Part shown: one piece after another, positions 23,046 to 27,334 of the stretch | Layout: each line of letters begins with the position of its first letter | Numbering within the stretch: position 1 is the stretch's first letter | Assembly: GCF_022808865.1 (NCBI RefSeq) | Contig: NZ_JAKZLB010000004.1 | Coordinates: 248,001 to 312,000, forward strand | Length of the DNA: 64,000 nucleotides | Direction: 5' to 3' | Source of the DNA: Geothrix oryzisoli | GTDB taxonomy: Bacteria; Acidobacteriota; Holophagae; Holophagales; Holophagaceae | Notes under the pieces: model-generated | Seen by the model: the letters and a program-made list of their open reading frames with translations, nothing else | Databases searched by the model: none | What the model was told of the DNA's origin: nothing | Program-made: the position numbers and the translations under genes

Positions 23046-23966
23046 ATGCCAAGCCCGACCGCTGTTGTGTGTGCCTATTCCAGCGTGGGGACCGCAGCCC
23101 TGGAGGGCCTCCTGGAGGCCGGCGTCGAGGTGAAGGCCCTGTACACCTACGCCCAGGGCGCCGACGAGCGCTGGTTCACCCCTCCTGCCGCGGTGGCGGG
23201 GGCCCATGGCATCCCGGTCCGGTTCGCGCCCGCCTTCAACTCGGATGAGGTCTTCGAGGCCATCCGGGCCCACCAGCCCGACTTCCTCTTCAGCTTCTAC
23301 TTCCGGGAGATGATCCAGGCCCGGTTCCTGGAGATCCCCCGGCTCGGGGCCTACAACCTGCACGGGAGCCTGCTGCCGAAGTACCGGGGCCGGGCCCCCA
23401 TCAACTGGGTCCTGGTCAACGGTGAGACCGAGACCGGCATCACCCTGCACGCCATGACGCCCAAGCCCGACGATGGGCACATCCTGGCGCAGGCGCGGCT
23501 GCCCATCGACTGGGATGAGACAGCCCTGAGCCTCACGCAGAAGGCCGCGGACGCCGGGCGTGGGCTGGTGCGCGAAGCCCTGCCCGGACTGGCGGACGGG
23601 AGCCTCCCCCGCATCGACCAGAAGACCCTCGGCTCCTCCACCTACTTCGGCGGCAGGAAGCCCGCCGACTCGCGCCTGGACTTCGCCATGACCGCCGGGG
23701 AGGCGTTCAACCAGATCCGCGCCGTGGCCGACCCCTGGCCCAACGCCTTCGTGGAAACGGCGGGCGGGACCATCAAGGTGGCCTGGGCGCTGCCCACCGA
23801 ACTGCCCTGCCCCCAGGGCCGGTTCCGGGCCGGCCGGGAAGGTGTACTCCTCGGATTCGCCGATGGCGCCCTGAGGGTCCAGTCCCTGAAGGTCGACGGG
23901 ACCCGCCTGGAACGCCCCAGCGAGCAGGCCATGGCCCTGCGGAAGCTGGGCTTGACCGAGGGCTGA
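23046..23966 (+). CDS. ArnA N-domain-like formyltransferase
   Basis: 306 aa. It matches the formyltransferase domain of ArnA closely in the core: FSFYFREMI, NLHGSLLPKYRGRAPINWV (with the N-x-H catalytic pair), VNGETETGITLH and the Asp in KPDDGHILAQ. It would transfer formyl from 10-formyl-THF to an amino sugar such as UDP-4-amino-arabinose. The C-terminal part is a short OB-like domain, and there is no dehydrogenase domain as in full ArnA. GGAGG four bases before the ATG at 23046 decides the start over an upstream ATG at 23025. No other arn genes are nearby, so the sugar is uncertain. Confidence 0.87.
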   Translation: MPSPTAVVCAYSSVGTAALEGLLEAGVEVKALYTYAQGADERWFTPPAAVAGAHGIPVRFAPAFNSDEVFEAIRAHQPDFLFSFYFREMIQARFLEIPRLGAYNLHGSLLPKYRGRAPINWVLVNGETETGITLHAMTPKPDDGHILAQARLPIDWDETALSLTQKAADAGRGLVREALPGLADGSLPRIDQKTLGSSTYFGGRKPADSRLDFAMTAGEAFNQIRAVADPWPNAFVETAGGTIKVAWALPTELPCPQGRFRAGREGVLLGFADGALRVQSLKVDGTRLERPSEQAMALRKLGLTEG

Positions 23967-23976
23967 GCCCCCGGCT

Positions 23977-24807
23977 TCACTCGCAGGCGGAAGCCGAGGC
24001 CACCCGGATCGCCTCCGGGGCCGGGGTCGACGCGGAAGACGCCAACAGGGCGTCCAGCGTCTCCTTGAAGGATTCGTAGCTCTCCGCCCCGAGAACCACC
24101 TTGGTCACGCTGAGCACCTGTCCTTCCGCGTTCAGGGTGCCGAACAGGAAGGCCGGGGCCCCCTGGATCTGCATCCGCTCGGCACTGGCCACGCTCAGCC
24201 GGATGTTCTCCGCGTACTTTCCCCCCTCCAGGCTGGCGTTGAAGGCCGCCGCATCGAGGCCGAGGTCCCGGACCAGCTTGGCCAGCGCGGCAGGGTCGAA
24301 GGGCCGCTGATCGGCGAACAGCCGGTCGTGGGCTTCCCAGAATTTCCCCTGCTCCCCTGCGCAGCGGGCGATCCGGGCCTTGAACTGGGCATCGGGATGC
24401 ACCGGCAGCGGAAGGTCGCGGAAGAAATACTTCACCTTCCCGGTGCGGACATAGTCGGCATCAAGCCGAGGGAACACCTGGGTGGCGTACCTGGCGCAGT
24501 AGGGGCAATCGAAGTCCGAATATTCCAGGATCGCCACCCGGGCCCCGGAGGCACCCTTGAATGGCTCGCGGAAGACGTTGACGGAGAGCGGGCTCCCGGC
24601 CTTGGGGAGGGCGGGACCGCCGGTCGCCGTCCGTTCCTTCAGGAGCCCCTTGATCGCTTCGAGTTCCTCGAGCATCCGCCGCTGGCCATCCTTGAGGTCA
24701 TCGATCTGCCGCTGGAGGGAAGGACCGGCAGCCTGCTGGGCCATGCAGACGGGAACGGCGAGGGTGGCCAGGAACACGAGGCGGGCGGCGCAACGGGGGA
24801 AAATCAT
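23977..24807 (-). CDS. DsbA-like secreted thiol-disulfide oxidoreductase
   Basis: 276 aa. A signal peptide (about 1-23, ending MAQQ) is followed by a helical coil (QRQIDDLKDGQRRMLEELE) and a thioredoxin/DsbA fold with DFDCPYCARY (CPYC near residues 101-104) and cis-Pro in QGAPAFLFG. The pattern FREPFKG...VAILEYSDF is that of DsbA/DsbG-like proteins with an N-terminal extension. It would act in the periplasm. It is downstream of the EXORDIUM-like gene on the same strand, which encodes a six-Cys exported protein and is a plausible client. Confidence 0.9.
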   Translation of the reverse strand: MIFPRCAARLVFLATLAVPVCMAQQAAGPSLQRQIDDLKDGQRRMLEELEAIKGLLKERTATGGPALPKAGSPLSVNVFREPFKGASGARVAILEYSDFDCPYCARYATQVFPRLDADYVRTGKVKYFFRDLPLPVHPDAQFKARIARCAGEQGKFWEAHDRLFADQRPFDPAALAKLVRDLGLDAAAFNASLEGGKYAENIRLSVASAERMQIQGAPAFLFGTLNAEGQVLSVTKVVLGAESYESFKETLDALLASSASTPAPEAIRVASASACE

Positions 24808-24841
24808 GGGAAACCCGGGAAGGAAGGGGATGGTCGAGGAT

Positions 24842-24874
24842 GACCACCGGCGGGCGGGAAGCCCGCCGGTGGTC
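24842..24874 (-). terminator. Intercistronic hairpin between the EXORDIUM-like and DsbA-like genes
   Basis: Perfect 14-bp stem GACCACCGGCGGGC/GCCCGCCGGTGGTC with loop GGGAA. No T-run follows on the minus strand, so it may stabilise the upstream mRNA or partly uncouple the two genes. Confidence 0.65.
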
Positions 24875-24899
24875 CTGCTGCAGCCGGCGATGGACCCGC

Positions 24900-25838
24900 C
24901 TACTTCACCAGGTCGCAGTACTGCCCGGTGGACCGGATGGTCACATTGCGCTGGATGAGGAAGTCCCGGGTGCCCAGCTTCATGTTCGCGTAGGCGCCGT
25001 TGGCCACCTGGTAGGAGGTGCCGAAGGTCCAGGCGCACAGGTCGCCATTCTCGTAGCCCCGGCGGTTGTACCAGGCGCTGGCATCCGCATCCGTGGTCGC
25101 TTCCTCCAGTTCGTGGGCCAGCACGGAAACCATGCCGTCCACGCCGGCGTTGCCGTTGGGGCCGATGCTCTGGGCCGCGCAGGCGCTCAGGCACTGGGCC
25201 GCGTTGCCGATGAACGCGTACTTGATGTCCGAGCCATTGATGGTGCCGTGGGTGTGCCAGCCGCAGTACTTGCTGCAGAAGCCGGAGGACTCAGCCACGT
25301 CGGAGGAGGTGAGCACGAAGTAGATGCCGTTGGTGTCGCTGGGCAGCGCCTTGCTGTTGATGGCATCGGCCACGATGGACTGGATGTTGGCATCCGTCAG
25401 GCTGGCCCCGTAGGGATAGGCCACCGTGGTGGCGCCGCCGTAGGTCACATTCCCGGAGATCAGGTTGGACGAGCCGACATAGGTGCTGTTGATCTGGAAA
25501 TAGGGAGATCCGCCGATGGCGTTGAAGAAGTCCGTGACGATCTGCTGGCCTGAGGCGGTATCGGTGTTGTTGGCCTGGGCCCAGTTGCCATACCAGATGA
25601 TGTAGGCCGTGGGCGTGCTGAAGACCGGACCCCCGTGGTACTTGAGGGGAGCCGTCAGGGCGCTGGTGGAGCCGGCGGTGGGAGCTGCGCCGAAGACGGC
25701 ATTCGGGCCGCCATCGTTCGGGTTCACCCGGTGATGGACGATCTCCGGGGCGCGCTGGTCCTGAGCGCTGAGCGCAGGGGCCAGCCCGAAGGCAACCACC
25801 AGGGCTGTGGCGAACCAAAGCCGCGAACTGCTGTTCAT
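24900..25838 (-). CDS. Exported EXORDIUM/Phi-1 (phosphate-induced protein) family protein
   Basis: 312 aa with a signal peptide ending at ALSAQ. The family pattern is strong: LKYHGGPVFSTPTAYIIWYG, DFFNAIGGSPYFQI, IYFVLTSSDV, GFCSKYCGWHTHG, YAFIGNAAQC, and GMVSVLAHELEE followed by WYNRRGYENGDLCAWTFG. This family is best known in plants as apoplastic growth-related proteins and also occurs in soil bacteria and others. The HELEE segment looks like a zincin-type HE motif, but no activity has been shown to my knowledge. Six Cys (CSKYC, CLSAC, LC, YC) suggest three disulfides. GGAGG precedes the ATG at 25838. Confidence 0.88.
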   Translation of the reverse strand: MNSSSRLWFATALVVAFGLAPALSAQDQRAPEIVHHRVNPNDGGPNAVFGAAPTAGSTSALTAPLKYHGGPVFSTPTAYIIWYGNWAQANNTDTASGQQIVTDFFNAIGGSPYFQINSTYVGSSNLISGNVTYGGATTVAYPYGASLTDANIQSIVADAINSKALPSDTNGIYFVLTSSDVAESSGFCSKYCGWHTHGTINGSDIKYAFIGNAAQCLSACAAQSIGPNGNAGVDGMVSVLAHELEEATTDADASAWYNRRGYENGDLCAWTFGTSYQVANGAYANMKLGTRDFLIQRNVTIRSTGQYCDLVK

Positions 25839-26275
25839 GGAACCTCCTTGAAGTGGGGTGGGGGGATGGGGAAAGGCCCAGACAGGCCGATCCCGTGGGG
25901 AGAAAAGGGCTTCCCGGAACCAGCCGGCGGCAGCGGCCTGCCAACCAGCTGCAGTGATGCGGACCGTGACTGCCTGACCCGCCCTGCGAACTATCAAGAT
26001 GAAATGGACTGGGGGGAGGCTATCGATTTTGAGACTGAGTGTCTATCTATTTTCGAAAAAACAAGTGTCATTACACGAACATACCTCATCAATCTATGCA
26101 TTTTCATGGCAACAGATACCCAGTCCATGGCATATCAACCGCCCGGAAATCCAGCCTCCTGCTTCGGCCCCGAGGCAGGCCTCCGGAATCCGCCGGGGGT
26201 GCGTCAGGCCCCGGTTTGGCCTCGTTCCTGAACGGAGGTATGCTGACCCGCTCTCGTCACCTGGAAAGGCATTCC
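25839..26275. other. Long intergenic region with an A+T-rich core
   Basis: 437 bases with no supported gene between two divergent genes. The stretch about 25985-26150 is conspicuously A+T-rich compared with its surroundings. The left part must hold the promoter of the EXORDIUM-like gene, but I see no convincing hexamer pair there; the right end holds the fabH-like promoter. No repeat or RNA fold was recognised. Confidence 0.5.
26216..26244 (+). promoter_or_regulatory. Promoter for the FabH-like gene
   Basis: TTGGCC (26216-26221), 17-base spacer, TATGCT (26239-26244), about 30 bases before the start codon. Confidence 0.5.
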
Positions 26276-27334
26276 ATGCGAAGTGTGATCACCGGAACCG
26301 GCGTCGGCCTGCCTCCGCATATCGTGACCAACGAGGCGCTGTCGCGGCTCATGGACACCTCGGACGAATGGATCCGGGTGCGCAGCGGCATCCAGGAGCG
26401 GCGCTATGCGGAACCGGGGCAGGGCTCCGCGGATCTCGGCGTCCTCGCGGCCCGGGCTGCCATCGCGAAGGCCGGTCTCGGCATGGAGGACATCGATGCG
26501 GCCATCTTCGCCACCATGACGCCCGACCACGTGCTGCCGGGCAACGGCCCGCTCCTCCAGGCGGCCCTGGGCCTGCGCACGGACCTCCCCACCTTCGACC
26601 TCCGGCAGCAATGCAGCGGCTTCCTCTACGGCCTGGAACTGGCCGACCTCCTCATCCAGAGCGGGCGCTACCGGCGCGTCCTGCTCGTGGGAGCCGAAGT
26701 GCATACCGCCTTCATGCCCTGGCACCTGGGCTGGGACACCCTCATTGGCCAGTCCACCCGCGAGATCACCGACGCGGAACGCGCCGAGAACACCCTCAGC
26801 CGCGACCGGACGGTCCTCTTCGGAGACGGCGCCGGCGCGATGGTGATCGAGGGCCGTGAGGGTGACGCCGGGCTGCTGAAGACACGGCTCTTCACGGACG
26901 GCACCGGCGCGGGGGTGCTGACCATGATGGGCGCCAGCTTCAAGCGCCGTCCCTTCGTCACGGCGGAGCAGATCCAGGCCGGAGACACGCTCCCCATCAT
27001 GTCCGGCAAAGAGGTCTTCAAATCCGCCGTGACCCTCATGCCCCAGGCAGTACGCAGCGTCTGCGCCGACGCCGGGATGGCCGTGGAGGCCCTGGACCTG
27101 GTACTGGTCCACCAGGCCAACCTCCGCATCATCGAAGGCGTGCAGAAGGCCCTGGGCCTGCCGGCCGAGAAGGTGCCCCACAACATCGAGCGCTACGGCA
27201 ACACCACCGCCGCCACGCTGCCCATCCTCTTCCACGAATGCCTGCAGGATGGGCTGGTCCAGCCCGGCATGCTCGTAGCCTTCACCGCCCTCGGCTCCGG
27301 ACTGCACTGGGGCGCCGCGCTCTACCGGGCCTGA
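26276..27334 (+). CDS. Beta-ketoacyl-ACP synthase III (FabH-like)
   Basis: 352 aa thiolase-fold enzyme. The triad is complete: Cys112 in QQCSGFLYG, His278 in VHQANLRI and Asn308 in YGNTTAA. It would condense an acyl-CoA with malonyl-ACP. It is about 30 residues longer than housekeeping FabH because of an insertion around 160-180 (PWHLGWDTLIGQSTREITDAE in part), a trait of FabH-like enzymes that start special products. No other fab genes are adjacent, which also points to a specialised use. ATG at 26276. Confidence 0.9.
   Translation: MRSVITGTGVGLPPHIVTNEALSRLMDTSDEWIRVRSGIQERRYAEPGQGSADLGVLAARAAIAKAGLGMEDIDAAIFATMTPDHVLPGNGPLLQAALGLRTDLPTFDLRQQCSGFLYGLELADLLIQSGRYRRVLLVGAEVHTAFMPWHLGWDTLIGQSTREITDAERAENTLSRDRTVLFGDGAGAMVIEGREGDAGLLKTRLFTDGTGAGVLTMMGASFKRRPFVTAEQIQAGDTLPIMSGKEVFKSAVTLMPQAVRSVCADAGMAVEALDLVLVHQANLRIIEGVQKALGLPAEKVPHNIERYGNTTAATLPILFHECLQDGLVQPGMLVAFTALGSGLHWGAALYRA

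Follow-up and report, generated by a model that had tools for sequence, protein, structure and literature searches.

An EXORDIUM-family gene and a DsbA-like gene form an apparent two-gene cassette in Geothrix

The window, a stretch of 64,000 nucleotides from Geothrix oryzisoli (assembly GCF_022808865.1, contig NZ_JAKZLB010000004.1, positions 248,001 to 312,000; source genome of 3.23 Mb, here G000), carries on its minus strand two neighbouring genes separated by 92 bp. The upstream gene (24900-25838) encodes a protein of 312 residues, hereafter EXO (P0001 when used as a query), which reaches the Pfam gathering score of the Phi_1/EXORDIUM family PF04674 (97 bits, cut-off 25, E 1.7e-27), contains exactly six cysteines (188, 192, 216, 220, 268 and 308) and has the sequence HELEE at residues 242-246. 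The downstream gene (23977-24807) encodes the partner (P0002), a DsbA-like protein of 276 residues starting at ATG 24807; a longer reading frame from GTG 25194 was rejected, as it extends back into the EXO gene. The partner exceeds the cut-offs of both Thioredoxin_4 (PF13462, 82.7 bits, cut-off 23.2) and DSBA (PF01323, 66.5 bits, cut-off 25.6). These assignments confirm the description given in the earlier note on this DNA, namely a six-cysteine Phi-1/EXORDIUM protein with HELEE followed on the same strand by a DsbA-like protein with CPYC. The features of the locus are as follows.

23977 to 24807, minus strand: DsbA-like partner, with a signal-like N-terminus (by eye), a heptad-like segment and a Thioredoxin_4/DSBA domain (profile matches)
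24496 to 24507, minus strand: CPYC active-site motif, partner residues 101-104 (sequence)
24842 to 24874, minus strand: intergenic hairpin with a 14-bp stem, directly 3' of EXO, with no T run (z -2.93)
24900 to 25838, minus strand: EXO, Phi_1/EXORDIUM family, six cysteines, metzincin-like predicted fold (profile match, predicted structure)
25035 to 25052, minus strand: E263-N-G-D266-L-C268 of EXO, second invariant acidic block and cysteine (alignment)
25089 to 25115, minus strand: H242-E-L-E-E246-A-T-T-D250 of EXO (HExxExxxD), candidate metal and catalytic site; H242, E243, E246 and D250 in 48 of 48 sequences (alignment)
25254 to 25265, minus strand: C192-G-W-H195 of EXO; C192, G193 and H195 do not vary among the 48 sequences (alignment)
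25764 to 25838, minus strand: putative Sec signal peptide, covering roughly the first 25 residues of EXO (probable, judged by eye)
25989 to 26138, minus strand: AT-rich stretch upstream of EXO, a possible promoter region (G+C 0.32-0.43 in 60-bp windows starting at 25989-26079)

A search of 47 Geothrix genomes, whose completeness ranges from 58 to 100%, found a relative of EXO in 10 (P0001 as query, E <= 1e-3) and a relative of the partner likewise in 10 (P0002 as query, E <= 1e-20), and the two sets of carriers are identical (G000, G198, G212, G236, G252, G400, G402, G417, G419 and G420). When only genomes with a completeness of 90% or more and a contamination of 5% or less are counted, each gene is found in 6 of 30. 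The two genes are adjacent in all ten carriers, about 90-400 bp apart, the larger distances depending on the chosen start codon, and no case of EXO without partner or of partner without EXO was seen among the 47 genomes. By chance, a second draw of ten genomes would hit the same ten about once in 5 billion times, a figure that ignores kinship. The proteins matching PF13462 in the 47 genomes are exactly the ten partners, with no match in the other 37, although 9 of 14 control genomes are positive in the same search. With PF01323 the same ten are retrieved and a single protein of G422, which is a better match to Thioredoxin_5 and shows no signal peptide to the eye. Within Geothrix, a dedicated partner for EXO is thus well supported. 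All ten partners keep a CxxC motif, CPYC being found in that of the window only, and CSFC, CSYC, CTFC or CTYC in the remaining ones. The best NCBIfam match of the partner is a thioredoxin-like (seleno)lipoprotein model, at 98 bits and below its cut-off of 190. Two copies of EXO and one partner are present in G212, and G417 encodes in addition a distant second EXO-like protein (L032, G417:C128:1817-2464). This protein contains HELCEAITD and GEIGDICAW, lacks a signal peptide as judged by eye, matches no Pfam family at E <= 0.01 and may mark a wider superfamily.

The pair occupies two genomic sites, whose neighbours were named by eye. At site A (G000 and G236) EXO and partner lie in tandem beside a formyltransferase-like gene, and at site B (the other eight carriers) they lie head-to-head between an aminotransferase-like gene and a hybrid-sensor-kinase-like gene. 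EXO is present in 6 and absent from 24 of the 30 site-B loci examined. In every one of the 24 EXO-less loci the kinase gene precedes the aminotransferase gene on one strand; the two are no more than about 120 bp apart in 19 cases and 300-620 bp apart in the other five, one of which is from the site-A genome G000. Site B is therefore empty where EXO is missing, and both genes seem to have been inserted (or lost) there cleanly as a unit, the behaviour of an apparent two-gene cassette. In G000 and G422 (L099 and L122) the otherwise empty site B holds a small gene resembling, by eye, the 23S-rRNA-intervening-sequence four-helix proteins. Site B may be an insertion hotspot.

Because the chance figure for the shared carriers ignores kinship, a tree of the aminotransferase gene flanking site B was examined (32 rows, with nine of the ten carriers, G236 being absent). 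On this tree the carrier label needs seven changes, of which well-supported branches impose at least four; as 127 of 500 shuffles of the labels need no more, carriers are hardly clustered. The pair is gained or lost jointly several times, a count that is rough since exchange of the flanking gene along with the cassette is possible. Both the Geothrix EXO proteins (11 rows, support 98/82) and their partners (10 rows, 100/97) form a single clade, which fits one assembly followed by later movement. Carriage by phages was considered and dropped, a pattern scan of viral contigs having returned no relative.

A hairpin is found 3' of EXO in all six loci examined, two at site A and four at site B. As it accompanies EXO at either site, this suggests that EXO would end its own transcript and that the partner in the window would be reached by read-through. 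No T-run terminator and no consensus sigma-70 promoter was found in 23900-26320. The divergent region common to both genes at site B is also lower in G+C (0.46-0.55). A 24-base element, TAGACTCCTGTCCAAACGTTCTTT, matched with 0-3 mismatches, lies some 90-215 bp ahead of the EXO gene in six of the ten carriers, all at site B (L085, L086, L087, L088, L090 and L091), and in G420 a promoter-like TTGTGA hexamer stands 17 bases ahead of TAGACT upstream of EXO.

The alignment of EXO (A1, 48 rows) comprises P0001 and 47 other sequences, 27-87% identical to it, of which the distant L032, a long branch in the EXO tree, is one; 47 of the 48 match PF04674 at E <= 0.1. Thirteen positions are invariant in all 48 (Y173, C192, G193, H195, D234, H242, E243, E246, D250, E263, D266, C268 and Q296), and a HExxExxxD pattern is expected about 0.0001 times per random protein of the composition of EXO. 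The metzincin motif HExxHxxGxxH/D is absent, EXO having HELEEATTD with a glutamate in place of the second histidine in 48 of 48. AlphaFold models of P0001 (pLDDT 87.8) and of the 33% identical L015 (pLDDT 82.8) both place the HE in the later part of a long helix (residues 231-249 in P0001). With VIA-align, metzincin-fold proteins take all 50 rows listed for each model at Z 7.6-8.6, values that may reflect only a common arrangement; they include ADAMs, with ADAM22 at the head of both lists, snake-venom proteases, TACE, ADAMTS, archaemetzincin, and the entries 3lmc and 6o38, of which we take 3lmc and the CpaA of 6o38 to be metzincin-fold. The two models are not independent, since the second alignment (37 rows) is wholly contained in the first. 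Foldseek against the PDB with the P0001 model gives metzincin-fold proteins in 48 of the 50 rows listed (the other two being 9qcc and 6uqx), none at E <= 1e-3 (best 3.9e-3), and BFVD likewise returns nothing at E <= 1e-3, its top row being a mimivirus metalloprotease (3.4e-3). A sequence search against solved structures yielded no meaningful match (best E 0.23 and 0.37), and the models for Peptidase_M43 and microbial transglutaminase each match two of the 48 A1 members weakly (best E 0.029 and 0.0066, respectively). Given the near-unanimous fold rows and the place of the HE, we lean to a metzincin fold for EXO, at modest Z and weak Foldseek values, and call it metzincin-like rather than a member of the metzincins because HExxHxxGxxH/D is absent. 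On these models EXO has the look of a metzincin-like metalloprotease whose HExxExxxD site is unusual, so that the zincin-like site proposed in the earlier note stands as a prediction, from the invariant residues and the predicted fold.

The pattern of cysteine loss bears on the disulfides. Cys188 and Cys216 are jointly absent from 4 of the 48 A1 rows (two Actinomycetes records, one of them with two copies, and Pelomonas), an overlap with a chance of 2.6e-5 if kinship is ignored; L015 is without Cys188 and Cys220 and keeps Cys216, and L052 departs from the pattern at positions 220 and 308, close to insertions. This co-loss suggests a C188-C216 disulfide, and C192-C220 and C268-C308 would follow by elimination only; the presence of disulfides in EXO, on which the reading in the earlier note depends, is thereby supported at the level of prediction. 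Nine acidobacterial A1 rows have an extra pair of cysteines near 278 and 282. Searches for the enzymes that could reoxidise a DsbA were negative in all 47 Geothrix genomes, both for VKOR (the same search being positive in 3 of 14 control genomes) and for DsbB (PF02600, positive in 6 of 14). Cassette-bearing Geothrix therefore show no known reoxidant among the two searched, and the partner would have to be recharged some other way. Geothrix without the cassette show no DsbA of the class of the partner in the PF13462 and PF01323 searches.

Outside Geothrix the partner was not found beside EXO. PF04674 is present in 16 of 396 Acidobacteriota genomes, five of them Geothrix, and in none of the 11 others does a relative of P0002 lie within 1.5 kb of EXO (tblastn, E <= 1e-3). 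Among 21 named EXO loci, the three from Geothrix (L033-L035, three of the ten carrier genomes already counted) have the partner, and the other 18, which overlap in part with the 11 genomes, show no P0002 relative at E <= 1 in flanks of up to 6 kb. A survey thus gave no sign that the pair is conserved across the Acidobacteriota, and the dedicated folding partner suggested by the earlier note is well supported within Geothrix but not across the phylum. Relatives of P0002 as such occur in 199 of 392 Acidobacteriota genomes (E <= 1e-15), with 28-44% identity beyond Geothrix among the matches listed; seven of the 11 non-Geothrix EXO genomes have one somewhere and four are not among them, and none of the 20 EXO-less Geothrix genomes listed has one at that threshold. 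EXO genes also occur in tandem or near-tandem groups of two to four, in several acidobacterial loci and one Actinomycetes record (L011, L018-L020 of G257, L044, L047, L049, L050 and L051).

Of 25 relatives sampled outside Geothrix, whose loci have varied neighbours by eye, a protein of G084 is the sister of the Geothrix partners (support 99/94). It lies in an apparent operon (L124:3929-7157) comprising genes for a thaumatin-ricin-B-lectin protein with 21 cysteines, the DsbA-like protein and a GH16 protein. This arrangement fits a tendency of the partner class to travel with disulfide-rich, presumably exported clients. A general thaumatin-DsbA operon was rejected: thaumatin is found in 3 of 392 genomes, with a P0002-like DsbA nearby in one of the three (G084) and none in L132 (G155) or L133 (G368).

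With moderate confidence, we read the pair as a mobile client-plus-foldase cassette, joining an exported metzincin-like metallohydrolase to a dedicated thiol oxidoreductase. EXO, whose N-terminus is signal-like by eye, would be the client and most likely a protease, in which H242 and E246 would serve as metal ligands, with D250 (or H195, E263 or D266) as a further ligand, and E243 as the catalytic base; the three putative disulfides C188-C216, C192-C220 and C268-C308 would stabilise it. The partner would act in the periplasm and form or correct these disulfides. Since Geothrix show no DsbB, VKOR or other Thioredoxin_4 protein, the client would bring its own catalyst, itself recharged in some other way. 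Counted against this mechanism are the modest fold-search scores, the missing metzincin motif, the failure to find a known reoxidant with the DsbB and VKOR searches, the EXO relatives elsewhere, which keep their cysteines with no partner as neighbour, the variation of the CxxC of the partner, the loss of Cys188 with retention of Cys216 in L015, and the best NCBIfam model, which falls below its cut-off.

Part of this mechanism could be wrong while the pairing holds. The partner may be a disulfide isomerase, reductase or chaperone of the DsbC/DsbG kind, dimerising through its N-terminal heptad-like segment (residues 28-60), with the disulfides of EXO formed otherwise; DsbG has CPYC, the partner matches the DsbG model PRK11657 weakly (E 0.0046), and the lack of DsbB and VKOR matches in the 47 genomes is in keeping with such a role, which we nevertheless hold to be unlikely, as the DsbG match amounts to 16.2 bits, far under the cut-off of 124. 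An isomerase would need DsbD. Nor need EXO be an enzyme: its invariant histidines and acidic residues may instead serve a structural metal or a bound ligand, on a scaffold like that of the metzincins, in a surface or matrix protein, a reading of slightly greater weight that is still on the unlikely side. The missing HExxHxxGxxH/D speaks for it, as does the leading place of ADAM22, which is catalytically dead; plant EXO, moreover, is described in the accessible text of one study as active in growth and of no known biochemical function (PMC13103426). A purely structural site would not need E243, however, and this residue, at the position of the catalytic base, is as invariant as H242 and E246.

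The link between the two genes may itself be questioned. That the partner serves oxidative folding in general and was acquired by some Geothrix, with EXO a mere neighbour, would agree with the wide spread of P0002 relatives in Acidobacteriota and with the varied neighbours of the 25 outside loci, but seems distinctly improbable given that the partner was not found without EXO in any of the 47 Geothrix genomes. We give still less credence to hitchhiking, in which a mobile segment would have brought the two genes together a single time by chance and with no functional link. For this the monophyly of both clades, where a single assembly is enough, and the lack of such a pair in the outside loci examined could be cited: hitchhikers should separate, whereas the pair is kept at two sites and in two orientations, with the partner in all ten carriers and in none of the other 37 genomes despite the repeated, well-supported changes on the flanking-gene tree.

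The client-plus-foldase reading has a counterpart in DsbL/DsbI with AssT, a client-dedicated DsbA system, in that a DsbA-class protein is encoded beside one exported client, here as a constant neighbour in all Geothrix carriers; unlike DsbL/DsbI, the EXO pair has no DsbB-type partner by PF02600 in any of the 47 genomes. EXO resembles the metzincins (adamalysins/ADAM, TACE and archaemetzincin) in the fold-search rows and in the HE late in a long helix, and departs from them in having HExxExxxD instead of HExxHxxGxxH/D and no meaningful sequence match to solved structures. Bacterial EXO shares the Pfam family PF04674 with plant EXORDIUM/PHI-1, and we know of no plant EXORDIUM member with the HExxE residues. 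The accessible part of one account describes the plant proteins as secreted, as EXO putatively is, and about 300 residues long, like EXO, and names one bacterial homologue, from Solibacter usitatus (Schroder 2009, PMC2661892). CLCA_X, of a different family, has the consensus HExxHxxxD, with its aspartate at the spacing of D250 and a second histidine where EXO has glutamate; its family is patchily spread in prokaryotes, as is EXO, and, unlike EXO, comes with no mention of a DsbA partner in the text available (PMC3650047).

The biochemical function of EXO/EXL is described as unknown in the available portion of a 2026 paper (PMC13103426), and no enzyme activity for EXO is seen in the accessible text of a 2021 cotton study (PMC8481617) or of a 2022 Marchantia proteome (PMC8792609). 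Within the open-licence literature, a broad search found nothing on the biochemistry of bacterial EXO, none linked EXORDIUM to 'zincin' or Geothrix to DsbA or 'disulfide bond', and co-mentions of EXORDIUM with metalloproteases were incidental, judged by titles and term counts; the family accession PF04674 turned up in two plant papers among those listed.

As a bolder proposal, which we regard as possible though on balance doubtful, the EXORDIUM family would at its root consist of exported, metal-dependent proteases that are metzincin-like and have a new kind of site, HExxExxxD, the plant regulators being altered and perhaps catalytically dead, and in Geothrix the protease would be carried in a portable cassette with a disulfide catalyst working without DsbB or VKOR. 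EXO/EXL proteins promote plant growth, and their function becomes directly assayable through the bacterial branch, whose catalytic-looking site does not vary and whose predicted fold is metzincin-like. The cassette is also a natural test of disulfide formation in a bacterium without recognised DsbB or VKOR, consisting of one putative exported client, one catalyst, and presence and absence over 47 genomes. The pairing in Geothrix thus gives a first testable idea of the function of the EXORDIUM family.
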